Shown one piece after another: positions 36,128 through 46,818 of a stretch of 46,818 nucleotides of DNA. The position numbers were made by a program, and so were the translations under genes. The notes under the pieces were generated by a model. That model was given only the letters and a program-made list of their open reading frames with translations. It searched no databases and was not told the origin of the DNA. The DNA comes from Pseudorhodobacter aquimaris (lineage in GTDB: Bacteria > Pseudomonadota > Alphaproteobacteria > Rhodobacterales > Rhodobacteraceae). The stretch's first letter is position 1. Every line of letters starts with the position of its first letter. The DNA lies in the NCBI RefSeq assembly GCF_001202025.1, contig NZ_LGHS01000009.1:1-46818 (forward strand), given 5' to 3'.

Positions 36128-36201
36128 GGCGGGTGGGCAGGCAGGCTATGCACCGGATTGCAAATCCGAGTAGACCGGTTCGATTCCGGTACCCGCCTCC
36201 A
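36128..36201 (+). tRNA. tRNA-Cys (anticodon GCA)
   Basis: The acceptor GGCGGGT pairs with ACCCGCC, the anticodon arm CGGAT-TGCAAAT places GCA in the loop, the T arm carries GGTTCGATTCC, and CCA is encoded. It is complete. An integrase gene begins about 70 bp downstream in convergent orientation, so its 3' end is a likely integration site. Confidence 0.93.
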
Positions 36202-36248
36202 TTGTTTTCAATGACTTGCGCCATGCTCTGCCCTTTCATGGTTTCGTT

Positions 36249-36268
36249 TTGAAACACCTGTTGAAACA
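36249..36268. repeat. direct repeat TTGAAACA, twice
   Basis: TTGAAACA at 36249-36256 and again at 36261-36268, between tRNA-Cys and the integrase. Short direct repeats here could be integrase arm-binding sites. This is a weak call because the repeats are short. Confidence 0.3.
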
Positions 36269-36269
36269 T

Positions 36270-37297
36270 TTACGTTCTGTCCCTGTTCTGTTCTGCACGA
36301 TTCCGCGCCTCTTGCGCCTCACGTGCGAATGACACTTGGCGAACGGTTCCACCGTACTTTTTCAGCATCTCGGTGCTGGAATGCCGGTCACTGCCTTGAC
36401 CAGTTCATCGCTGTTCCCGGCCTGATAAAGTTCGATTGTCGCATTCTTGCGCAGGCCGTGGGTGACATAGGTCTTGGCATCTGGGTGCTGCATCTTGGCT
36501 TTAACCGTGCGCATTTCTTGGGCAATGGTCCGATAGATCGCAGGTGCGCCCTTTGCGTCGGTTACGATTGTCAGCCCGTTTTTGGTCACGGTCGCCAGGT
36601 AAGCCTTAAGTCGATTGGTCAGCAGGATAGTCAAACCCTTGTCGCCCTTCCCCTGCATCACTGTGATCTCATCATCCTTGATATGATCCCAGCGCATCCG
36701 CAGAACGTCACCGATGCGCTGCCCCGTCCCTACGCAAAGTTCATAGATCAGGCGCGCCCGTGGCGTTGCAATCGCCTCAAACTCGGCCCGCACATCATCC
36801 GGCCACGGTTCCCAGCCCTCGCCCTGTTGCTTAAACAACGGAATACCCTTTGCGGGATTGCTATGTTCTTTTTTTAAGAAGCCGATCAACCGCGCATGGT
36901 TCAGTAGTATGACCATGACCTGAACCAGATAGTTTGCCTGCCGCCAATGATCAGCGTTAGCCCGGTGCAGTTCGTATATATGTTGCGTCTCGATCTTTTG
37001 CGGATCGCGGTCGCCCCAAATTTTGCGAATATGCTCGATGTAGTGCCGGTAATCTGATTGGGTACGCGGTTTTAGCTTGGTGTAGCCATCGCTCTCAAAG
37101 TAGCTAAGGGCAAGCGTCTCGAATGTCCGCTTGTTTGGAATGGGATCGCGGCCTTTCAGCAGGCGGTTGTAATGGTCCCAAAATTCAGGGGTGCCCGGCT
37201 CTTCTTGCATCATCACAGATACGCCCCTCGCACGGCGGATAAAGCGGACATATCCCCGATCCTGATAGACGTACTTAGGCAGGCTCTTTTTTGTCAT
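36270..37297 (-). pseudogene. tyrosine-recombinase integrase, frameshifted near the active site
   Basis: A phage-type integrase. The N-terminal region binds arm-type DNA, and the catalytic domain carries GTGQRIGDVLRMRW (first Arg), MQGKGDKG (Lys region) and THGLRKNA (His-x-x-Arg). The frame as written stops at 36362, after VTGIPAPRC. Adding one base near 36383 restores VTGHSSTEMLKKYGG, which supplies the second His and the catalytic Tyr, and the frame then runs to a stop at 36270 (about 341 aa). The missing base removes the nucleophile, so the enzyme is inactive unless the base is a sequencing error. The 63-aa gene upstream overlaps its start by 4 bp. Confidence 0.85.
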
Positions 37298-37485
37298 TTT
37301 CTGCCCATACGTAAATCAGAGCTAAGGAAGTCATCATGACTTTCGGGGCCATTCATCGCGGCATCAATTGTAACGCTACCATCAAGTTTGACCTCGAGCC
37401 GCGCTTGCAGCCAGCCAGCCGCCCGCGCCTCACGCATAAGCGCGGCGGCAAGGGTCTTCGCTTGGTTTTGCGGAGATACAGCCAT
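37294..37485 (-). CDS. small protein before the integrase
   Basis: A 63-aa protein (MAVSPQNQAKTLAAALMREA through SSDLRMGRK), soluble and charged. It overlaps the integrase start by 4 bp (ATGA) and follows the MerR-like gene by 9 bp, so it is part of the integration operon. I recognise no family; an excision-related role is only a guess from position. Confidence 0.6.
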   Translation of the reverse strand: MAVSPQNQAKTLAAALMREARAAGWLQARLEVKLDGSVTIDAAMNGPESHDDFLSSDLRMGRK

Positions 37486-37494
37486 TTCGTTGCC

Positions 37495-38139
37495 CTACTC
37501 GCTCAAGTGGACAATGGGGTGCGGCAAGCGAGACGCCAGCAGAGAAGCCATGGCACCGATGGAAAGCATGATTGCAGGTCCTTGCCATGCGGCCATATGG
37601 AAAGCATGATCTGCAAATGGGTGGTCTTCACCATAGAAAAATTCAGGATGGCCGTTAGCCCAGTACACGAATAATTCAGGGGCCTTTTCCCCACTAACCC
37701 CAAGATCCGATTCTAGTGACGTTACAAGATGATTTTTCGCGTGGGTGCCGTGAAGCCACCGAAGGCTTTTTTCGTCAATTTTAGCGCCCATAGACAGTGC
37801 AAGTGCCTCTTGGTGTTTATCTAACGCAAAGCTCTCACTGGTGGCCTCATGCGCAGCAATTGCGGATCTTTCCGAGTATAGTTCCGACTGCCAGAGGACT
37901 TTGAGCAAAATTCCTCTGGCAGCAGTATCTGCAAAAGTCACCGCAACTTTTGGCCCGATCCCGCGCTCCGATAGTGCGCCAATGACCAGCAGGCGACAAA
38001 CCTCCAGCAAAGAGAAACGAGCATGGCCCTTATTCTTTGGCAAATAGCCCTGCTTCCGCAAGTTTCTTTGGTTATCTAGTGAAACGCCAGTCACTTCGGC
38101 AGCCTCGCTTGGTGTAAGTGGATCAATGGTGAGTTTCAT
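37495..38139 (-). CDS. MerR/AlpA-like DNA-binding protein
   Basis: A 214-aa protein. The first 60 residues look like a MerR-type winged helix (LTPSEAAEVTGVSLDNQRNLRKQGYLPKNKGHARFSLLEVCRLL). The rest shows no domain I know. Proteins of this type act as excisionases or regulators of integrase in phage satellites and prophages. A consensus-like promoter lies just upstream at 38166-38194. It probably heads the operon ending in the integrase. Confidence 0.7.
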   Translation of the reverse strand: MKLTIDPLTPSEAAEVTGVSLDNQRNLRKQGYLPKNKGHARFSLLEVCRLLVIGALSERGIGPKVAVTFADTAARGILLKVLWQSELYSERSAIAAHEATSESFALDKHQEALALSMGAKIDEKSLRWLHGTHAKNHLVTSLESDLGVSGEKAPELFVYWANGHPEFFYGEDHPFADHAFHMAAWQGPAIMLSIGAMASLLASRLPHPIVHLSE

Positions 38140-38165
38140 GCTGCCCTTCCGCTCCGTATCGGTTC

Positions 38166-38194
38166 ATATGACCCGAATTTTAGAACCGTGTCAA
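38166..38194 (-). promoter_or_regulatory. strong promoter for the integrase operon
   Basis: On the minus strand: TTGACA, a 17-bp spacer, then TCATAT, about 27 bp before the MerR-like start. The -35 matches the sigma-70 consensus exactly. Confidence 0.75.
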
Positions 38195-38215
38195 TACTCC
38201 CGTTTTGTACGAGTG

Positions 38216-38238
38216 CAAAAAGGGCCTAACCATGCCCT
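38216..38238 (-). terminator. terminator between the regulator genes of the element
   Basis: On the minus strand AGGGC and GCCCT pair around an 8-nt loop, followed by T5, directly after the stop of the gene ending at 38241. Confidence 0.65.
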
Positions 38239-38240
38239 CC

Positions 38241-38609
38241 CTATTCACTGATCGCGTTGTCTTGCAGTTTTTTTAGCAAGGCTGCGCGGGCGGACGGGTC
38301 TAGCGCGCGGATTGCCTTTAGCTCTTCTCGCTCTAGGCTTCGTGCTTTGCTCCACTCGCGTAACATGGCGCAAGGGCTTCCTCCGAACAGCCAGTCCATG
38401 TTGACATTGTGGTCTCCGATCCATTGCATAAACGGCTCGGTCAGTGTTGGCTCGCCGTCTTCATAGGTGATCTTTGGCGGGTCAATTTCAAACAGTGCGC
38501 AGGTATGAGCAAGGCGCTCTTTGAATGTGCCAAATTCATAATGGCGGTGCGTTTCTGGGACTGTAGGCAAGCCGGGGGCATTACCCAAAATAGGGATGAT
38601 GTTTGTCAT
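38241..38609 (-). CDS. phage-type protein of unknown function
   Basis: A 122-aa soluble protein. GDHNVNMDWLFGG resembles the NxDWLxxG piece found at the end of some small phage regulators, and the C-terminus (LDPSARAALLKKLQD) is helical. A regulatory role is possible but not shown. It lies upstream of the terminator at 38216 and follows the 92-aa gene by 12 bp, on the same strand. Confidence 0.6.
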   Translation of the reverse strand: MTNIIPILGNAPGLPTVPETHRHYEFGTFKERLAHTCALFEIDPPKITYEDGEPTLTEPFMQWIGDHNVNMDWLFGGSPCAMLREWSKARSLEREELKAIRALDPSARAALLKKLQDNAISE

Positions 38610-38621
38610 GGTGGTTTTCCT

Positions 38622-38900
38622 TTAATTCAATTTTGTTGCGTTTTGAGGCTCAAAATCAATGTCCTCAAGATCCACTTCCATGCGTGTGGCTAGGTCGTAA
38701 AACGAAGAGCAAACACCTTGCAGGGCGCGCTTTTTGCAGCCAGTCATAGGTTCGCCAAATTCAGGAAGCGTGCAAATTAGGGTGTGAAGCGCATCTACCA
38801 GATTGCTAAGCTGCAACACTGAGTAGAAGAGGTCCTCAATTCTCCCTTTGTCGACAAGGCATGTTTCTTCGGTCGCCTCTTGGGCGTTGCTTTTCGGCAT
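38622..38900 (-). CDS. phage-type protein of unknown function
   Basis: A 92-aa protein starting MPKSNAQEATEETCLVDKG, mostly helical, with four cysteines. The ATG at 38900 has AGGGAA upstream. No family was recognised. It is in the run of small genes transcribed toward the integrase. Confidence 0.6.
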   Translation of the reverse strand: MPKSNAQEATEETCLVDKGRIEDLFYSVLQLSNLVDALHTLICTLPEFGEPMTGCKKRALQGVCSSFYDLATRMEVDLEDIDFEPQNATKLN

Positions 38901-38916
38901 GGTGTTTTCCCTTGGT

Positions 38917-39069
38917 TTAGGCTGGTTGGTGGCTGGTGCGTTCCATGCGGTCACGAATGGCCCGAATGATCTCGCTGTTTTGGCTAGATCCGTTTTTTTC
39001 TGCTTCCCCTTCGATCCACTCCTTTAGATCGGTAGGTAGGCGCAACTGCAAAGGTTTGCGGGTTGTCAT
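38917..39069 (-). CDS. ribbon-helix-helix (Arc-like) repressor
   Basis: A 50-aa protein, MTTRKPLQLRLPTDLKEWIE followed by GEAEKNGSSQNSEIIRAIRD and a short tail. The beta strand plus two-helix pattern (LQLRLPTDLKEWI, SSQNSEIIRAIR) is the Arc/MetJ fold. The gene is too short for usual ORF tracks but is well formed. It is divergent from a second Arc-like gene with tandem palindromes between them. Confidence 0.78.
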   Translation of the reverse strand: MTTRKPLQLRLPTDLKEWIEGEAEKNGSSQNSEIIRAIRDRMERTSHQPA

Positions 39070-39083
39070 GTCTGGCCCTTTCA

Positions 39084-39113
39084 TGGCTCACAGCCATACA
39101 TGGCTCACAGCCA
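39084..39113. promoter_or_regulatory. tandem palindromic operators
   Basis: TGGCTCACAGCCA occurs twice, at 39084-39096 and 39101-39113, 17 bp apart. A weaker copy, TGGCTTTATGCCA, is at 39136-39148. The sites fill the space between two divergent Arc-like genes, where autoregulatory repressor sites are expected. Confidence 0.7.
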
Positions 39114-39150
39114 CCATTGCGTCAAGCTCTAAATGTGGCTTTATGCCAGC

Positions 39151-39486
39151 ATGACAGACAGAAAGCCCCAAGATCAGGATAAATTTGTTCTTCGCCTCCC
39201 CGATGGAATGCGCGACAGGATCAAGGCTGCCGCAGATGCTAATAGCCGCAGTATGAATGCAGAAATTGTGGATAGACTGGATACAAGTTTCGGGGGAGAT
39301 ATTTTCAGCGGTGTTATGCTTGGCGAGATTAAAAATCCCAAAGCAAAAGCTCTCGCTCAAAAAATGATCGCCATGCAGATTAAGCAGATGATTGATCTGC
39401 TGGTTGAAAACGACAGCCAGCCTGAAACAGGCTTGGGCACATCATCCCCCTTGGATAAGGATAGGCCGGATCAGCGTCCTGCATGA
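39151..39486 (+). CDS. Arc-family ribbon-helix-helix repressor
   Basis: A 111-aa protein started at the ATG at 39151 (MTDRKPQDQDKFVLRLPDGM). The FVLRLPDGMRDRIKAAADAN-SMNAEIVDRL segment is the Arc/Mnt fold (DNA-binding strand FVLRL). The C-terminal half, with the helical AKALAQKMIAMQIKQMIDLL, may mediate oligomer formation. An in-frame upstream ATG at 39133 lies in the weak operator copy, so it is less likely. It is the only plus-strand gene of the element. Confidence 0.82.
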   Translation: MTDRKPQDQDKFVLRLPDGMRDRIKAAADANSRSMNAEIVDRLDTSFGGDIFSGVMLGEIKNPKAKALAQKMIAMQIKQMIDLLVENDSQPETGLGTSSPLDKDRPDQRPA

Positions 39487-39493
39487 TCCGGCC
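39464..39493 (+). terminator. hairpin overlapping the stop of the Arc-like gene
   Basis: GGCCGGATCA and TGATCCGGCC form a perfect 10-bp stem around a 10-nt loop; the stop codon is the start of the right arm. TTAGTGTT follows. It separates this gene from the portal gene, which converges on it. Confidence 0.55.
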
Positions 39494-39621
39494 TTAGTGT
39501 TCCATGTCGCGCCCTGCTGAAAACTTTGGACAGGGCCACACGGTGACGGGGTTTTCCTACTTGCCGTCTAAAGGGGGTGCTTTGCGGGGATGAATAAACC
39601 GCAGGCGCACCCTGCCAATTC

Positions 39622-40698
39622 TTAAACTGCGTTGTCGCCCTCTCCCCAATTCACCAGGGTAAGGGCTTGGTTCAGATCGCCTGGGGCAATGCCTGCCCCT
39701 TTGGCCTCAACCAGCGCCTTGACGATAGTTGACAGTGCACGGGCGCGGCCCCCTACGTCATAGGCTTGCACGGGGCGCATGGTGTCGATCGAGACTTCCA
39801 CGCCCAGCTTGACGGTTGCTTCCTCGGCCAGTAGGGCGGCAATCGGCTGCAAGGTCCAGCCCGCAAGGTGGCGCTGCCCTTCCCTGATCACTGGCCCTGT
39901 TGATGCATGGTTGAACATGCCCGGCAACACCCCGAAGGCCATTTCGATTGCATGACGTGCCGCTGCCAAGGTTTCAACTGTCATGGATTTTGAAAGGTCA
40001 GGGGAAAGCTGATCCGGCGATTTGCCAATATTGGGGTTCATACCAGCCGCCGTTGACTGCGCTACACCCTCGATCAAAAGGCTTGCGCCTCGCCTCCCCT
40101 TAAATTGTTGCCGCATGGTGTCCATATCATCGACAGAGCCTTCTGGCAGCGGGATGATCGTAGAGCCAAGCGGTGCATCACGGTAAACATCTCGCAAGGC
40201 GGTTTCCACCTCGCCCAGCAATGACGCCGAAAGGGGCGCACGGCGCAGGGGGGCAGACCCGGCCCAAGGTGATACACTATCAGACCCGATACGCAGGTGC
40301 AGAACCTCGGCGGCAAGGGCGGTCACAGATCGCGCGCCGCCCGCGTCTGACAGGCTTAGGCGATAGGCTTTTGGGGTGCCGTCACGGGTTGATAAATCCC
40401 AATCGGCGCAAGGCAACAAGCCGCGTTCAGTGATCAGCATCACCGCTTCACCTCGCAAGGCCACAGCCCGCGCAATCAGGGCCATGGTGCGGCGATCCAG
40501 TATCGGCGCGCCTTGCACATCGGCAAGGGCGAAACCGCCTTCCCAGAGGCTAACGCAGCTTTGAACGGTCGCGGTCAGCTCTGCCACGCCTTGCCCGCCG
40601 CTGATAAATCCTTCCCGCGCGGCCATCATCAGCCCCGTATAGCCCGCGCCGCTGGAACGGGTTTCGATTGGTGCTTTGCGTTTGAATAATCCGAACAT
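39622..40698 (-). CDS. HK97-type portal protein
   Basis: A 358-aa protein starting MFGLFKRKAPIETRSSG. The dodecameric portal forms the DNA entry gate of the phage head. Family marks include the AAREGFISGG region, the HLRIGSDSVSPWAGSAP stretch and the C-terminal LVNWGEGDNAV. It is shorter than many portals (about 400 aa) but internally continuous. Its ATG overlaps the protease stop (TAATG). It is the last gene of the head operon on the minus strand. Confidence 0.85.
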   Translation of the reverse strand: MFGLFKRKAPIETRSSGAGYTGLMMAAREGFISGGQGVAELTATVQSCVSLWEGGFALADVQGAPILDRRTMALIARAVALRGEAVMLITERGLLPCADWDLSTRDGTPKAYRLSLSDAGGARSVTALAAEVLHLRIGSDSVSPWAGSAPLRRAPLSASLLGEVETALRDVYRDAPLGSTIIPLPEGSVDDMDTMRQQFKGRRGASLLIEGVAQSTAAGMNPNIGKSPDQLSPDLSKSMTVETLAAARHAIEMAFGVLPGMFNHASTGPVIREGQRHLAGWTLQPIAALLAEEATVKLGVEVSIDTMRPVQAYDVGGRARALSTIVKALVEAKGAGIAPGDLNQALTLVNWGEGDNAV

Positions 40699-41263
40699 TA
40701 GGCTCTCCAACGGTTAAAGGCGGCATAAAAGCGCGCCCAGTCTTGGGGTGCGTCTTTTGGCGCTTGCCAATCCCGCGCCTCAATCTGTGCCTCTGAATAT
40801 GCCGGCACAGTTACGGCGCTAATCTCGAACAGGTCGGCAGATCGAACGGTGCGCAAGATTGCCCCGCCGCGCGCCTCAATTCCCTCACCACCCGGGCGAA
40901 CGCGAAAGCCCGGTGACAATCCGCGGATAAGCCCCGATTCATGCGCAGACAGGAGTCGCGCGCCCAAGTGGTGCCGCCTCTGATCACGGCTTCCACTTCT
41001 AGCGCCGTGTCGGTATCGCGCAGGGTCAAGGTGCCCGCCCGTGTCGATGCCAATGGCTTGTTATAGTCATGCCCGGAAAGGAAGTGGATTTCCTCGCCGC
41101 GCTCGATGCGGTCAGCGAAAGCACGGCTTTCGATGATCTCTTTGCGGGGTTGCGCACCATCCGAAAGCACGGTTTCCCGGCCATATGGAAAGGATGCCCG
41201 AAGGCGAGTTTCCCCGCCCTCGGTGCGCAATTCCAGCCCGCCTTGGTGCGAACCCCAAAGCAT
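40698..41263 (-). pseudogene. HK97-type prohead protease, frameshifted
   Basis: Two overlapping frames encode the halves of a prohead protease (S78-like) of about 188 aa. The first, from 41263, has FLSGHDYNKPLAS (catalytic His about 65) up to TTWARDS. The second, ending at 40698, has ESGLIRGLSPGFRVRP and FEISAVTVPAYSEAQI (catalytic Ser). Joining them needs one extra base near 40960. The protease would process the capsid shell. The start overlaps the capsid stop (TAATG), so translation would be coupled. As read, the enzyme is broken. Confidence 0.8.
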
Positions 41264-42528
41264 TAGGCCAGTTCCAGCCCGGTCAGGATTTCAAGCTGTG
41301 CAGGTCGCGCAACCGTCACATCCATTGTGGCAAGCGCCGTGATGCGCAGCCCGCCCGATTGTGCATCGCTGTAGGGGTCTCGGATCAAATCAACCGCACC
41401 CCATGCCCCGACAAAGATAGGCGCAACGCCGCCCGCTGCCGTGGTCAAAAGAGAAGTGCAAGCCAAGGGGCTGCCAGCCGGGGCGGCAAGGCCGTTTGTG
41501 GTCATGGCGATATTGACCGCCGGAATGTTCTTGACCATGCGGTCCCACTCCGAAACAGCCGTGCCGCTAATCAGGGTATCATCAAGGAAGCTCCACAATT
41601 CGGGCCGGATCATTGCCTTGATCGCATCGGGACCACCCGCCGCATTGCCAGCCATGAAGCGCACCACAGCCGCGCGGAACGCCGCCCAGCTTGCCGCGTC
41701 GTCGACAGCCGTGCTTGTGATGCCGTAGGTTGCCGCCCCGGTGATCACGCCCAAGGGCTGACCATCGGCCCCGGTGCCAAGGAAAACCGCCTTGTCCATC
41801 GCCGCGCCCATAGCGCCGGACATATCGCGCCGGATCGCTTGTTCAAGCGCCGCGCCCGATTGCTGCAATGCCTTGCGGGTGATGCGCATTTGAACACCCA
41901 AATTATGGTCAGGCGACATTGCCTTGTCTGTGGTGGCATAGGCGGTCGGCCCTGCAACGTTGCCCGTTTCGGATGCTGCCCATCCCGCAGAAACCGCGCT
42001 TGTCGTAACGGGCCATGCCACAGAACCTTGCGCGATGCTGATCATCTGCGCCCCCATGCGGGCCGCTACGCTATCAGGAAACAGGCGGTCGATGATCGGG
42101 CGCTGCTGCACGGGGTCGGGGGTGCCGCTTGCGACAGTCTCGCCCGCGCGTTGCTCCAATGCCTGCCACGGCACGGGGATGCCACGGAACCCGCCCGCGC
42201 TGCGCAGCTCCTGCACGATTTCGGCGGTCTTGCCGTCCAGTTGCCGCCCTTCGTCCAGGTTCAAAGCAATCTGGCGCAATTCAAAGCCCGCCATCATCTC
42301 GGCCCATTCCTTGCCCGAACGGGTTTCAAGCTCGGCCCCGGCGTCCCGGCGCTCGGTATCCTCGGCAATCAATGCCGCGCGATAGCGGGTTTCTCCGTTC
42401 CGGTATTCCAGATCGAGCGCGGCCATTTGGCGGGTTTCGTCCTCGGTGGGCTTTTCTTTCCCTACCAGCTCGGCAAGGTTTTGGCGAATTTCATACTGAC
42501 GCCGGGTGATTTCAACAGACTTAAGCAT
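41263..42528 (-). CDS. HK97-fold major capsid protein
   Basis: A 421-aa capsid precursor. The first 120 residues are a charged helical delta domain (TRRQYEIRQNLAELVGKEKP), which acts as scaffold and is cut off. The rest carries the HK97 core: AGWASSETG-like AGWAASETGNVAGP, LQQSGAALEQAIRRDMSGAMG, DKAVFLGTGADGQPLGVI and VDLIRDPYS. The ATG at 42528 has GGAG 8 nt upstream, better than the ATG at 42534, which overlaps the HNH stop. The reading frame is intact. Confidence 0.9.
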   Translation of the reverse strand: MLKSVEITRRQYEIRQNLAELVGKEKPTEDETRQMAALDLEYRNGETRYRAALIAEDTERRDAGAELETRSGKEWAEMMAGFELRQIALNLDEGRQLDGKTAEIVQELRSAGGFRGIPVPWQALEQRAGETVASGTPDPVQQRPIIDRLFPDSVAARMGAQMISIAQGSVAWPVTTSAVSAGWAASETGNVAGPTAYATTDKAMSPDHNLGVQMRITRKALQQSGAALEQAIRRDMSGAMGAAMDKAVFLGTGADGQPLGVITGAATYGITSTAVDDAASWAAFRAAVVRFMAGNAAGGPDAIKAMIRPELWSFLDDTLISGTAVSEWDRMVKNIPAVNIAMTTNGLAAPAGSPLACTSLLTTAAGGVAPIFVGAWGAVDLIRDPYSDAQSGGLRITALATMDVTVARPAQLEILTGLELA

Positions 42529-42530
42529 AC

Positions 42531-42865
42531 TCATTTCTCCATTGGTTTGGTGGTTTCTGCCGCCAAAGTGGCGACAGCATCTGCCCAAGCTTTACGCTCA
42601 GGGGATTTCTCTTTGTGTCCGCACTCGATGCGGGTCTTCTTCGTGTGACATGGACCGCAAAGCGGTTGCAGGTTACGCGGGTCGAAGGATAATTCGGGGT
42701 GAGTGCGCACGGGCTTGATGTGGTCGATCTCAGCCTGCGACGTTCTCCACAGCAGCGGCATTTCCAGCCATCCCGCTCAAGGATTTGTTGCCGTAGCACC
42801 TGCCAACGGCGGGTCGATGTGACCTTTTTTGAGTGACGGGCGTGTTCTTTGCGGATCACAGCCAT
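42531..42865 (-). pseudogene. HNH endonuclease, frameshifted
   Basis: The first frame gives VLRQQILERDGWKCRCCGERRR and the second gives AEIDHIKPVRTHPEL with SFDPRNLQPLCGPCHTKK, together a normal phage HNH nuclease (paired CxxC zinc sites and the DHI catalytic His) of about 110 aa. The two meet near 42730, where one missing G breaks the frame. HNH proteins beside the terminase help cut the packaged DNA in cos-type phages. It overlaps the terminase stop by 10 bp. The capsid gene follows. Confidence 0.82.
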
Positions 42866-44505
42866 AGCGCCCTCTCTTTCCGAATGGGCGCGGCTTTCAT
42901 CCGCGCACCTTGCGCCACGGCAAGGACAGCGGCCGCCGCCGCGTCAATACGGCCAAGGCTGCGCGCCTTTGCCAGCTTATGGTTGCCAGCCGGATCGATC
43001 AGCGTGATCGCGTCAGCGAAGGCAAAGCGCAGCAACAGCGAGGGCACGGACTGCACTTCGCCGTCGAACAGCGCACGGCGGAACCGCTCAACATCCTCGG
43101 AACCATCTTTCCATCCGAAGCCGCGCCAGATAAACGGGACACGGCCCAGACCTGCCGACATCATGGCTTCGGAAAACTCTGCATGTCGAAAGCGGTCACC
43201 GACCACGCAAGCCACCTCGGCGCCGTCAAGGTGGCGCACGATCTGCGCAAGCCAAGGCCCAGGCGGAACAGTGTTCTCACCCATAACCGATAATTCGCCC
43301 CGCTCGTGCATTTGTGTATATCGGTCTGATACACCGTCAGCCGCGCCACGATCTGCAAGCGAAGGCATCGCGGGGAAAGTACCGAGAGCCTCAAGCCGTC
43401 CAGTCTCGGGCCAATAGAAAGCCGCTGCCGACATGGAACGACTGCCGCCGAGGTCTACGCCAAGGATGCAAGCGCCTTCGCGTGGCGGCAAATCATCGGG
43501 CGAAACTTCTGCGTTCATCCATTCGTCGGCAGTTACCAACACAGAACGATCTTCGGAAGAAACGCGCTCATTTCTGTTTAAATTACGAAAACTGGACAGA
43601 GCCGAACCACCACGAGCGAGGGCGCGGCGGGCTTGCGACACCAGCCAGTCAGGGGCCGCGCCAATGCCTTCTTTCGCGCCGGGGTTTGCTTCGAGCAGCG
43701 ATTCCAAATCATCTGCTGGCAAGCCATAGCGCGGGCGATGTTCCTGGACGTATGTGCCGGGGGGCGGCTCATCGAGCCAGCGGGAAAAGGTGTTGGCATC
43801 ATCAGGGGCAGAGGTTGATATGATCAGGGCGCGACCATCTCGCTTGCCCAAGCCTGACAGGATCGCGTTCTCGAGATTGTCGCCTTTTTCGCGTTCCCAT
43901 GCTGCCCGCTCATCCAATATTGCCAGCGTAGGCGCGCCGCCAAGGATGGATTTGCCATCGGCTGCGATCACTCTAACCAACCCGCCGCCATTGCCTTCGA
44001 ACTCGATTTCAAGCTTAGAACCGCGCCGGATGATAAACTTGGCCTGATCCTCTTCCGGCAGTCCCTGGATGAAACCGAGCACAAAACTAAATGCTGTCTT
44101 GGCCTGATCGCGGTTGCGGGCTGCGATGATCACTTCGCGCTTAGGCTGGGGCTTAACTTCAAGCGCACCGACCAACTCACCCAGTGCAAGGCCAGCCGAC
44201 AGGGCAGTCTTGGCATTCCCGCGACCAATCGACAGGACGCCGACCATAACACCCTTGGAAAGTGCGCCTTTCACGAATTTACGTTGAAAATCAGCTAGTT
44301 TTAGCGTTTTTCCTGCTTTTTTGCCCTCTGGAACATTCAAAAGCCCTAAAAACTGAATTGCGCGGATCGCTTGCGATTTTCCCCGGATTTTTTCGAGAAG
44401 AGAGAAAGGAACAGTCCCATCATCGGTCCTACCCCGCAAAGACTTGGGGGCATTGGGACCATTTCCGAAGAGATCATGCGCCACGGCAGCATCCTCCATT
44501 TTCAT
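42856..44505 (-). CDS. phage terminase large subunit
   Basis: A 549-aa DNA-packaging motor. Walker A-like SIGRGNAKTA is at residues 92-101, Walker B TLAILDE with its catalytic Glu is near 193-199, and the RNase H-like nuclease domain begins at ACILGVDLGGSRS (D351). It belongs to the Terminase_1 type found with HK97 heads. Its ATG overlaps the winged-helix gene stop by 4 bp (ATGA). No separate small-terminase gene of known type is visible; the winged-helix gene is the positional candidate. Confidence 0.9.
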   Translation of the reverse strand: MKMEDAAVAHDLFGNGPNAPKSLRGRTDDGTVPFSLLEKIRGKSQAIRAIQFLGLLNVPEGKKAGKTLKLADFQRKFVKGALSKGVMVGVLSIGRGNAKTALSAGLALGELVGALEVKPQPKREVIIAARNRDQAKTAFSFVLGFIQGLPEEDQAKFIIRRGSKLEIEFEGNGGGLVRVIAADGKSILGGAPTLAILDERAAWEREKGDNLENAILSGLGKRDGRALIISTSAPDDANTFSRWLDEPPPGTYVQEHRPRYGLPADDLESLLEANPGAKEGIGAAPDWLVSQARRALARGGSALSSFRNLNRNERVSSEDRSVLVTADEWMNAEVSPDDLPPREGACILGVDLGGSRSMSAAAFYWPETGRLEALGTFPAMPSLADRGAADGVSDRYTQMHERGELSVMGENTVPPGPWLAQIVRHLDGAEVACVVGDRFRHAEFSEAMMSAGLGRVPFIWRGFGWKDGSEDVERFRRALFDGEVQSVPSLLLRFAFADAITLIDPAGNHKLAKARSLGRIDAAAAAVLAVAQGARMKAAPIRKERALWL

Positions 44506-44921
44506 AGCATGACCCGCCGTTGAACGGGGAACGCCGCTACGTTCGATGTGCTACGGTCAGGGCTATAAGAGTTCGTGCGCACCACGTGCGCCCCCGCTGT
44601 TCCGTTTCCTGCGCCCCCCCCCGCGCATCTGGTGCGCCCCTTCGCGTTACGAAACAGGTCATATTGGTTGCTGGTTTGGATGTTGTGTTGGGTGCGTGTG
44701 GAGACTGTTATGAGGCCGTTAGCCTCAAGCGCCTGCACGGCCACCTGCACGGCACGGCGCGACAGCCCTGTCTCGGCCCGTAGCGTCTCGTTGGATGGCG
44801 TACAGACGCCGCCCCTGTCGTTGTAGTGGTAGGCCAGCGTCAGCAGCACAACCCGCTGCACGGTGGTCAGCCGGGCGTGTTGTGATGCTTCCATTGCCCA
44901 TTTGATTGCGCTCCAGCTCAT
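44502..44921 (-). CDS. winged-helix protein upstream of terminase
   Basis: A 139-aa protein. Residues 15-75 form a helix-turn-helix of the phage replication/regulator type (TVQRVVLLTLAYHYNDRGGV, SNETLRAETGLSRRAVQVAVQALEANGLI). The C-terminal part is low-complexity, Gly/Arg/Thr rich. Position directly before terL suggests a small-terminase role, but the domain is also common in phage replication proteins. It overlaps terL and the upstream gene by 4 bp each. Confidence 0.7.
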   Translation of the reverse strand: MSWSAIKWAMEASQHARLTTVQRVVLLTLAYHYNDRGGVCTPSNETLRAETGLSRRAVQVAVQALEANGLITVSTRTQHNIQTSNQYDLFRNAKGRTRCAGGGAGNGTAGAHVVRTNSYSPDRSTSNVAAFPVQRRVML

Positions 44922-45154
44922 CGCACGTCCTCGATCAGTTTAAATTCATCATCGTCTTCGGTGTTGCCCCCGTGCATGAACAGGTCCGAGACCATGCTGT
45001 TCATCAGTGACAGTTGCTTGGCAGAGGGCTGCCAGTCGGCGCGTCCTCTTGCCTTTTGAATGGATAGGGCAAAGTTTCGGGCGAACCCCTTGGGCGCTGC
45101 GCCGATCACAGCGCGCCAATGGAACAGCAGCTCGTCAACCGTCCTCGTGGTCAT
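44918..45154 (-). CDS. small phage-type protein
   Basis: A 78-aa protein (MTTRTVDELLFHWRAVIGAA through EDDDEFKLIEDVR), helical, with an acidic end. It overlaps its neighbours by 4 bp on both sides, so it is translated as part of the head operon. No family was recognised. Confidence 0.6.
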   Translation of the reverse strand: MTTRTVDELLFHWRAVIGAAPKGFARNFALSIQKARGRADWQPSAKQLSLMNSMVSDLFMHGGNTEDDDEFKLIEDVR

Positions 45155-45690
45155 AGCGATACCCGACGATAGCGGGCCGCAATGCGCGCCGCATGAGGTG
45201 ATAATCCACTAGATTTACCATCGCCCGCGCCGCGCAGGTCATAGAAGGCAGAAGCCTGGTCCATGATCGCCAAAGCTAAATCTGCCGGAATATTTGAAGC
45301 CTTATCTCCGAAGCCCGCTTTGTACTCGATCACCACATCACCGCGCGGCGCAGGCCCATCAATCCAAAGTTTTGGGCGGTGCCCAGTAGTTACTGTGAAG
45401 CCTTCAAATTCGTCACCCCGTGCTGTTACGGTGACGGTCGCGGGGTCGAGCAGGGGCGCTATTGGCAAGGCCATCCATGCCACATCGGGCCACTCGGCCA
45501 TGCTGATGTATATGGTTTGATGCAGCAGCGCTATTGAGGCGTAGGCCTCAATCTCCAAAGCCGCCGCAGTTGCGTGGAGGGTAGCCTCATTGACCGCATC
45601 AGTGTCATTCCCTAACCGGCAGTGCAGCAGCACCGTAGCCAGATCGAAGGGGGCGGGCAGCCCGCTAAGGGGCGAACGATCAACAATCAT
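45151..45690 (-). CDS. phage head-tail connector-like protein (gp6/gp8 type)
   Basis: A 179-aa protein starting MIVDRSPLSGLPAPFDLATV. The C-terminal part fits the phage connector family: VVIEYKAGFGDKASNIPADLALAIMDQ, then ARIAARYRRVSL. These proteins sit below the portal and join the head to the tail. The presence of a connector with no tail genes is notable. The ATG at 45690 overlaps the preceding stop by 4 bp; the upstream part of the longer frame is not conserved-looking. Confidence 0.65.
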   Translation of the reverse strand: MIVDRSPLSGLPAPFDLATVLLHCRLGNDTDAVNEATLHATAAALEIEAYASIALLHQTIYISMAEWPDVAWMALPIAPLLDPATVTVTARGDEFEGFTVTTGHRPKLWIDGPAPRGDVVIEYKAGFGDKASNIPADLALAIMDQASAFYDLRGAGDGKSSGLSPHAARIAARYRRVSL

Positions 45691-46022
45691 GCCGATTTCC
45701 TCCCCTGCACATAGTGCAGGAACCCGGTGCGGTCCTTTGGTGACATGGCGTTGAACGATGCTAAGCAGTAAGCCTTGTGTTCGGCGGGGGTGGCATAACC
45801 AGCCCACCAGCTTGCTTCATCCATCACGTTGTAGAGCGTGTTGCTTGGCTGGCCGAAGGCAAGCTTCTCTAGCTCTTCATCCATGATGATTGCGGCAAGC
45901 GCGGGGTCGCAAGCATCAATTGCCGCCTGCAAGTTTTTCACGCCTGCCAAGCGGTCAAAGCAGGATGCGCTCAATATAGATTTGAGGCTTTTCCAGTTTT
46001 CAGCGGGAATTTCGGTTTGCAC
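45687..46022 (-). CDS. first gene of the head operon, unknown function
   Basis: A 111-aa protein with a GTG start at 46022, giving QTEIPAENWKSLKSIL and ending FLHYVQGRKSA. AGGGA lies upstream. The protein is soluble, mostly helical (EELEKLAFGQPSNTLYNVMD). I do not recognise it. Its start lies inside the left arm of a 48-bp inverted repeat, which may control the whole minus-strand head operon. Confidence 0.6.
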   Translation of the reverse strand: MQTEIPAENWKSLKSILSASCFDRLAGVKNLQAAIDACDPALAAIIMDEELEKLAFGQPSNTLYNVMDEASWWAGYATPAEHKAYCLASFNAMSPKDRTGFLHYVQGRKSA

Positions 46023-46068
46023 CGTCCCTGTAACCCATTGATCTGAAACGGTGGGTTTTAAGGACGGT
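46021..46068. repeat. 48-bp nested inverted repeat at the start of the head operon
   Basis: ACCGTCC (46021-46027) pairs with GGACGGT (46062-46068), and AACCCA (46032-46037) pairs with TGGGTT (46052-46057), with 4-bp gaps on each side and a 14-bp centre. The symmetry is exact. It overlaps the GTG start of the first operon gene. It could be an operator pair, a packaging (cos-like) site or an RNA hairpin. Confidence 0.65.
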
Positions 46069-46107
46069 TTGCTAAATTCTTCTTTATTTTCATAGCAGTG
46101 GGATAGG

Positions 46108-46152
46108 CTACGAATCTGAGGGTCGGGCGTTCGAATCGCTCCGGGTGCACCA
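46108..46152 (+). other. 3' half of tRNA-Arg(ACG), attachment-site-like
   Basis: CTACGAATCTGAGGGTC, then a T arm GGGCGTTCGAATCGCTC, acceptor CGGGTGC, A and CCA. This is the anticodon loop (ACG) to the end of a tRNA-Arg. The matching acceptor 5' half is absent, though the degenerate TAGCAGTGGGATAG just before it resembles a D arm. Such 3' tRNA pieces mark the far end of elements that integrate at the anticodon loop. It could instead be a degraded tRNA gene. Confidence 0.7.
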
Positions 46153-46554
46153 TTCTACATTTGTGTCAAATGCCAAGCAAAAGCGACTTTTGTGACAGAT
46201 AACTGACCCATTTGGCAGAATTTCCTGAATTCATCGCAGCGTTGCTCAGTTGAGCGGGTGATCGTAAGGTCAAGTAAATCTTGCCCTTGTCTGATCTCGG
46301 AAGCCTCGCTTGGGCAAAAGCTTATCTGCCACTCCCGGAACGAATTTCCCGCAGTCGCCGCTGACGGTGGCACATGCCGCGTGCGAGCCTGCTGCTTCCT
46401 TGCTGTCACGACTTGCGGCCAGGAATGGCGCCATTTCGATGCAGAGGTTCTGCGGCGACATTGCCTTTCCGATCGACCCGCTCTTTCGTGGTGAGAAGGT
46501 GGCCATAGAGCAATTGGCGCAGCTTGCAGGGTGTGACGTGGGCGCATTGGTGCG
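46153..46554. other. stretch with no confident gene
   Basis: About 400 bp right of the tRNA-Arg fragment. Overlapping ORFs on both strands exist, including a long minus-strand one, but none has a recognisable motif and their composition is not coding-like. It may be decayed IS DNA. Confidence 0.4.
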
Positions 46555-46818
46555 GGTAGCCAGGGTCGGCCTCGCATGACGGAGGAACTGCGCGATCCCG
46601 GTCTTGTTGTCGGGCACCCGTTGTCAGGCAACGGTTTGCTTGCAAACGGTAAGAGGGGCCGGTTGATGCGTGAGAACGCGATCAAGGTATTCGAGCCCGT
46701 AAACATAACGTCACGACTGACAGCAATTACGCCTTCAATGTCGCCCCCGATTTTCTGGATCAGGACTTCTTTGCTGATGGCCCGAACCACAATGGGCCGG
46801 GGAGATTTCCTACATCTG
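46555..46818 (+). pseudogene. IS3-family transposase OrfB fragment, frameshifted, running off the window
   Basis: Successive pieces on the plus strand match the OrfB pattern: GSQGRPRMTEELRDPGLVVGH, then RGRLMRENAIKV, then (next frame) ARKHNVTTDSNYAFNVAPDF and LDQDFFADGP, then (next frame) WAGEISYI, which would lead into the DDE core. The frame breaks near 46690 and 46796 each need one added base. An extra segment of about 33 bp sits after VGH. It is a decayed copy, cut by the window edge. Family by motif only. Confidence 0.65.

Follow-up and report, generated by a model that had tools for sequence, protein, structure and literature searches.

A probably inactive copy of a putative capsid-forming phage satellite in Pseudorhodobacter aquimaris, and its tail-less family in alphaproteobacteria

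Capsid-forming phage-inducible chromosomal islands (cf-PICIs) build their own capsids and depend for mobilization on helper phages that have been named, and their capsids fall into three radiations (PMC11389934). Here we describe a locus of similar appearance in Pseudorhodobacter aquimaris, located in a stretch of 46,818 nucleotides (the window) that is the complete contig C9 of a 77-contig draft genome. Between an intact tRNA-Cys gene (36128-36201) and a piece of a tRNA-Arg(ACG) gene (46108-46155), this contig contains an element of about 10 kb with an integrase, regulators and a one-strand operon of head and packaging genes, in which gene calling and Pfam and PHROGs family scans found no tail or lysis gene. 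Judging from its sequence and that of its relatives, the element is probably an integrated capsid-forming phage satellite that would need the tail of a helper, in a copy that is by now likely to be inactive. A widespread, size-constrained, tail-less head-forming family is thereby documented in alphaproteobacteria; no description of it was found in the literature searched, and the founding cf-PICI paper may mention it.

Like the cf-PICI EcCIEDL933, the element is small and integrated, has an integrase, encodes a capsid and packaging proteins of its own and lacks tail genes; AlpA-like genes occur in part of its family. The capsid and packaging set is present in all 43 elements compared (the window copy, with its protease and HNH genes frameshifted, and 42 relatives), and the family forms discrete islands with integrase, att sites and a PICI-like size, although the ends of the window copy are mismatched. 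Unlike the described cf-PICIs, the hosts found are alphaproteobacterial, and one adaptor subtype is similar to that of gene transfer agents (GTAs). To judge from the sequence features tested, all of which it possesses, the family probably works like the cf-PICIs.

Two other systems need to be compared. With HK97-like siphophages the family shares an HK97-type terminase large subunit (TerL, 28% identical to that of HK97; its family profile matches the solved terminase 6z6d at 1.2e-52), an HNH gene beside TerL and an HK97-fold capsid. The order portal-protease-capsid that is usual in siphophages is inverted here, TerL being followed by capsid, protease and portal, and the tail and lysis modules that accompany the head module in a complete temperate siphophage were not found. 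With the GTA of Rhodobacter capsulatus (RcGTA) and its kin the family shares an adaptor and, weakly, the prohead protease and, in one subgroup, the head closure protein, and the RcGTA capsid is among the best matches of the capsid fold. Unlike the family, this type of GTA has tail genes, and the satellite TerL, portal and capsid have no sequence match among the host's GTA proteins; a GTA of this type would be expected to have homologues of these three in a head-tail cluster.

Matches to TerL were found in 42 of 295 genomes of the host's family, 31 of them (own genome included; 30 of the 294 others) at 48-88% identity and 11 at 33% or less, with none between. Four of the 31 hold fragments (G110, G215, G252 and, at a contig end, G290). 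At E 1e-60 the TerL profile matched 2 of 385 genomes sampled from the class and 5 of 398 sampled from the phylum, own genome included in each, and all of these matches lie within the host's class. Among GTDB contigs, 220 stretches encode TerL relatives at E 1e-3; the best 80 of these (the named loci, 62-85% identity) come from organisms that, by their titles, we assign to Rhodobacterales (62), Rhizobiales (11) and Sphingomonadales (5), two being unplaced. In IMG/VR at least 574 stretches match TerL and at least 577 the capsid, and the window's element itself is present there as a predicted viral contig of 10,456 bp (L156). Three satellites reside in the one genome of Paracoccus sp. 2205BS29-5 (L093, L098 and L099, at tRNA-Asn, tRNA-Arg(ACG) and tRNA-Phe). 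In Pseudorhodobacter turbinis, of the host's genus, TerL lies at 397910-399427 of NZ_CP039965; at the same tRNA-Cys, the head operon is 77.6% identical to that of the window over 4.6 kb but the integrase only 28%, which points to modular exchange. The element at that tRNA-Cys in P. turbinis (L266, 1516-15320) measures 13.7 kb and has a 92% identical capsid, a different integrase at each end and an IS3-like insertion.

The ends of the elements are well defined. The tRNA 3' end is repeated at the opposite end of the element in 14 of the 16 G-numbered loci examined, 9.6-11.0 kb apart and exact over 13-52 bp, and in 47 of the 80 named loci (exact over 28-58 bp in 30 loci and over 14-22 bp in 17); several contigs occur in both sets. 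By base-count arithmetic, about 0.004 exact matches of 14 bp are expected for a 70-base query against 15 kb. The 47 loci represent 20 tRNA anticodons; in the remaining 33, part of which are contig fragments, no such repeat was found. Five of the 47 (L120, L122, L135, L150 and L152, with spans of 10,625, 11,245, 6,585, 8,539 and 10,684 bp) were left out of the set of bounded elements, and the 42 others, at 17 tRNA anticodons, span 9,367-11,346 bp (mean 10,413, standard deviation 482). So narrow a size across many sites is what packaging into a fixed small head would select. In a second architecture (L082, L094, L100, L102, L108, L124 and others) the integrase is distal to the intact tRNA gene and the portal side is beside it; most of these elements have an AlpA-like gene close to the integrase.

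Family profiles detected TerL, HNH, capsid, protease and portal in all 43 elements; more than 80% of the model was recovered in one frame in 43 of 43 for TerL, capsid and portal, in 42 for the protease and in 40 for HNH. Because the elements were found via TerL, this recurrence speaks for the other four genes. An integrase is present in all 43 (41 in one cluster, two others recognized via PF00589) and AlpA-like genes in 10, while 21 elements encode, near the place of the winged-helix gene, a protein from a cluster of which the single member scanned is a DnaB/primase-like ATPase; the open reading frames (ORFs) come from a simple caller and the cluster counts are approximate. The accessory genes were scanned as 132 ORFs, i.e. 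113 of the 114 singletons and one representative of each of 19 clusters. Their full Pfam list (23 families) contains no tail or lysis family, only neck proteins, and the first 25 of 82 PHROGs and 25 of 41 NCBIfam families likewise include no proteins for tail or lysis other than those of the neck. The singleton left out (L117:4628-5878), scanned separately, is an integrase, and ten further cluster representatives were scanned as well. Single accessory ORFs match a sigma-70 factor (the NCBIfam names include RpoD and MzaA), a Prim-Pol primase and a small terminase.

A portal was called in 27 of the 38 other named loci, and eight of the 11 without one stop at a contig end. Scanning of 150 of their 168 flank ORFs (16 shorter than 100 aa and two antisense ORFs were dropped) gave 119 PHROGs and 99 Pfam families, and the first 25 of each include no tail family. 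Two flank ORFs match another kind of portal (PF06381, phrog_146); assigned by length only, they probably belong to L140 and L147, where they would lie some 1 kb past tRNA-Asn and outside the satellite, and another phage remnant may adjoin the satellites there.

The head genes are evidently under purifying selection. Between the window and P. turbinis, the ratio of non-synonymous to synonymous substitution rates (dN/dS) is 0.10 for the capsid, 0.10 for TerL and 0.16 for the portal, and the family medians are 0.167 for the capsid (41 of 496 pairs usable), 0.173 for the portal (19 of 703), 0.144 for TerL (391 of 861) and 0.153 for the protease (1 of 210). The capsid model has an HK97 fold with an N-terminal helical region, and its best solved matches in a fold search are the capsids of roseophage R4C and RcGTA, at low identity, with encapsulins close behind. 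An E. coli cf-PICI capsid groups with that of RcGTA according to PMC12846349.

The kit of the family (integrase, regulators, a replication gene in about half of the elements, and a head and packaging operon of adaptor, TerL, HNH, capsid, protease and portal) would suit the following cycle. With an active helper, an intact relative would excise from its tRNA gene and replicate; small HK97-type heads would form around its own genome of about 10.4 kb, and these would dock, via the satellite adaptor, on tails from another element, on which the satellite would depend and which would also provide lysis. The observations behind this picture are gene content, recurrence, discrete ends, narrow size, selection on the head genes, the lack of any tail family seen and the frameshifts of this copy.

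The sequence-only reading of the window had proposed a capsid-forming satellite, while conceding that a prophage that lost its tail half would give the same picture, and had named a head operon joined to a tail module in close relatives as the observation that would speak against a satellite. This observation was looked for, and not made, among the best 80 TerL and the best 80 capsid matches in IMG/VR and in 50,697 phage records. The phage records contain no match to the portal, two matches to the capsid (both records of one phage, VP882, 25% identity) and 58 to TerL, all below 60% identity, the 30 listed being at 28%. No contig of phage length occurs among the two sets of 80, the longest measuring 26.8 kb (TerL) and 15.6 kb (capsid); the two longest (L170, L183) were examined in part. 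The most divergent TerL (48%), used as a query for a bridge to full phages, retrieved three contigs of 11.4 kb at most. The proposal of a satellite is supported: the head operon was found again at many sites, within defined ends and without tail genes. A simple deletion of the tail half of a prophage at this place is improbable: three frameshifted genes and mismatched ends make decay of the window copy likely, as that explanation would have it, and a few other copies are broken too, but 42 elements in many genera, located at 17 tRNA anticodons, share this tail-less set, its boundaries and its size, the head genes are under purifying selection, and no tailed close relative was found in the phage records and the best IMG/VR matches. 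For the family, recurrence, size and selection largely rule a simple deleted prophage out.

We consider it very improbable that the element is, instead of a mobile satellite, a domesticated head operon from which the host forms, for example, GTA-like or encapsulin-like particles. The capsid fold, closest to roseophage R4C and RcGTA with encapsulins high in the list, and the GTA-like adaptor would agree with domestication, but not the integrase in 43 of 43 elements, the variable sites with att repeats, the patchy distribution (31 of 295 genomes) or the narrow length; GTAs are not known to be integrated at tRNA att sites. An autonomous virus that needs no tail, as might be supposed from the lack of any tail family in the members scanned, is equally improbable: a head-tail adaptor dedicated to that role, together with portal, TerL and prohead protease and, in some elements, head-closure proteins, makes sense with an attached tail, and no lysis family is present among the 132 accessory ORFs.

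Several points weigh against a satellite that needs a helper's tail, here taken as the preferred reading. The likeness to cf-PICIs is one of sequence features and published descriptions. The 42 elements were selected by TerL similarity and repeats, and the profiles were built from the same elements; a weak tail match beyond the first 25 of the 82 PHROGs or 25 of the 41 NCBIfam families is not fully excluded. The portal is the weakest gene call, PF04860 scoring below cut-off in the window and in four of four relatives scanned. No small terminase subunit (TerS) was found in the window, and a TerS family is matched in one element only, while each of the head-closure profiles matches 8 of 43 elements and never the window. 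The window copy is frameshifted in integrase, protease and HNH, and its ends are different tRNAs (Cys and Arg). Decay affects other copies too, with TerL fragments in G110, G215 and G252 and in-frame stops within the TerL match in G001, G145, G147 and G288; L135, L147 and L150, in which no portal was called though their contigs continue, are probably broken copies.

As to where the tail would come from, the adaptor provides an indication. On host contig C64 (L361, C64 20000-39000) there is a cluster of portal, protease, capsid, adaptor, head closure, tail terminator, major tail protein and hub genes, which from its gene order we take to be the host's Rhodobacter-type GTA; the hub domain PF13550 is also found on four other host contigs. 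The satellite adaptor is 33% identical to the adaptor of this cluster over 161 residues (56.6 bits), and has no match in the phage records at E 0.1. When the proteins of the family were compared with those of five phage or GTA stretches of the host, 18 of the 21 family adaptors matched the GTA adaptor. There were no matches for the capsid cluster (0 of 60), TerL (0 of 43), the portal (0 of 43) and c8, a candidate for an alternative adaptor (0 of 14), and weak ones for 11 of 23 proteases. Head closure proteins matched in 1 of 5 cases in one subgroup, and in 0 of 9 in two other subgroups. The c8 elements and the remaining head genes give the GTA link no support. In 61 family genomes the adaptor profile hit 51 places in 43 genomes, and of the 30 places examined four were satellites, 25 lay beside a GTA capsid gene and one was a phage-like piece. 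From the adaptor matches and this survey, one adaptor subtype has the GTA as the nearest relative seen outside the satellites. The phage-like piece (G023; L396 end and L397 1-1700), broken at two contig ends, has a GTA-type adaptor and a head closure gene, and is possibly a helper-type phage.

These similarities suggest GTA-type tails as a candidate partner of the satellite heads. In its strong form, that the family is a satellite of GTAs whose heads dock through the GTA-type adaptor onto the host's GTA tails, the idea is unlikely; if true, a selfish element would ride on the gene-sharing particles of a bacterium and on their lysis. In a milder form the helper would be a siphophage with a GTA-type neck. 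An inducible Mesorhizobium phage is reported to have 12 RcGTA homologues (PMC11409702), and a phage helper with such a neck is therefore at least as possible as a GTA helper. The GTA-type adaptor turns satellite parasitism of GTAs into a testable question. Rhodobacter capsulatus has well-developed GTA genetics, and its strain DSM 1710 carries a member of the family (L076, 8306-18515, about 10.2 kb, at tRNA-Thr) with five head genes each in one frame.

The head operon of the window is on the minus strand in the order p111, adaptor, p78, winged helix, TerL, HNH, capsid, protease, portal. Its first gene, p111 (45687-46022), is conserved and has an all-helical model; as a candidate TerS it was rejected, the model (pLDDT 77) having no solved-fold match at E 0.001, and it has no match to the GTA tail terminator. 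The head-tail adaptor (45151-45807; phrog_442, 9.3e-14), for which the start of the family is at about 45696, is followed by p78 (44918-45154), a small protein conserved in this subtype, and by the winged-helix protein (44502-44921; phrog_270, 1.7e-15; PF13730, 7e-13), which is like the N-terminal part of RepO-type replication initiators. TerL (42856-44505) is a single open frame matching PF03354, PF20441 and phrog_9 (2.9e-53). The HNH endonuclease gene (42521-42865) is frameshifted near 42690-42770; its ORF has no Pfam match and owes its identity to PF01844, matched in two of two relatives scanned. The HK97-fold major capsid protein, with its N-terminal helical region, is encoded at 41263-42588 (PF05065, 8.7e-17), relatives pointing to a start at 42528. 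The prohead protease (40698-41263; PF04586) is divided into two ORFs (40811-41263 and 40698-40967) by a frameshift near 40928-40955, and the portal (39622-40710) matches PF04860 at 1e-7 and no PHROG; a PF04860 search of the own genome did not recover it. The Pfam matches of protease, capsid and TerL are all above cut-off.

The regulatory genes are also on the minus strand, except for the Arc-like repressor (39133-39486, plus strand; PF03869, 5.4e-15), which is divergent from the head operon. A short Arc-like ORF (38917-39084) is in the blastp cluster of the Arc protein, and two further proteins of this end (38622-38954 and 38241-38609) have no family match in Pfam and PHROGs scans. The MerR/AlpA-like helix-turn-helix protein (37495-38139; HTH_17 0.0038, MerR_1 0.0068) is a probable regulator or excisionase, and the small protein p63 (37294-37485) accompanies the same integrase type in relatives. 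In the tyrosine integrase (36362-37297; PF00589, 9.8e-13), a frameshift near 36383 puts out of frame the C-terminal part, where we would expect the catalytic tyrosine. The flanking tRNA sequences are on the plus strand: tRNA-Cys(GCA), on the integrase side, is the integration target, and the right end is the 3' part of the tRNA-Arg(ACG) gene, which differs from it.

Most of this layout had been read correctly from the letters. Coordinates and the calls of integrase, Arc-like pair, connector, winged helix, TerL, HNH, capsid and protease agree with Pfam, PHROGs and clusters, and the absence of tail and lysis genes, the intact tRNA-Cys at left and the tRNA-Arg fragment at right were all confirmed; for the MerR/AlpA-like and portal calls the families were matched, but with scores under the Pfam cut-offs. 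The claim that no recognisable replication gene is present was too strong, because the winged-helix protein matches a replication-initiation family (phrog_270). The three frameshifted genes and the mismatched ends had been missed.

Residues 306-342 of the relatives' integrase and the second halves of their protease and HNH align to the window in a different frame. By family profiles, the protease is split in the window alone among the 43 elements, and HNH falls below the one-frame threshold in three (window, L097, L117). Long host genes at about 16.6-34.6 kb align in one frame to P. turbinis, and the three two-frame matches in the host region are short ORFs antisense to longer genes. If frameshifts were evenly spread over the approximately 28 kb compared, all three would fall inside the element with a chance of about 0.05, and decay is therefore favoured, though not proven, over sequencing error. 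The window copy is probably an inactive member of the family.

Over 48 bp, the tRNA piece at the right end has the same sequence as the intact tRNA-Arg(ACG) gene on the own contig C7. A matching att pair of the element was not found, and there is no second tRNA-Cys end in the window nor, at up to three mismatches, in the draft genome. The left-end tRNA-Cys is also the site of relatives L042 and L070, whose integrase is about 73% identical. The mismatched ends could be explained either by a misassembly or by two islands having rearranged with each other. The contig stops about 660 bp beyond the element in repeated, insertion-sequence-like DNA: the right flank (46140-46818) has matches in the own genome and in 20 relatives only from about 46558 on, and the 261 bases at 46558-46818 are 100% identical to C66, shorter stretches matching other places in the genome. 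On contig C7 (1269-4851, L236), beside the intact tRNA-Arg(ACG) gene, an OLD-family-like ATPase of 600 aa and a UvrD-like helicase of 598 aa are encoded, which, read by eye, look like a Gabija-type defence pair.

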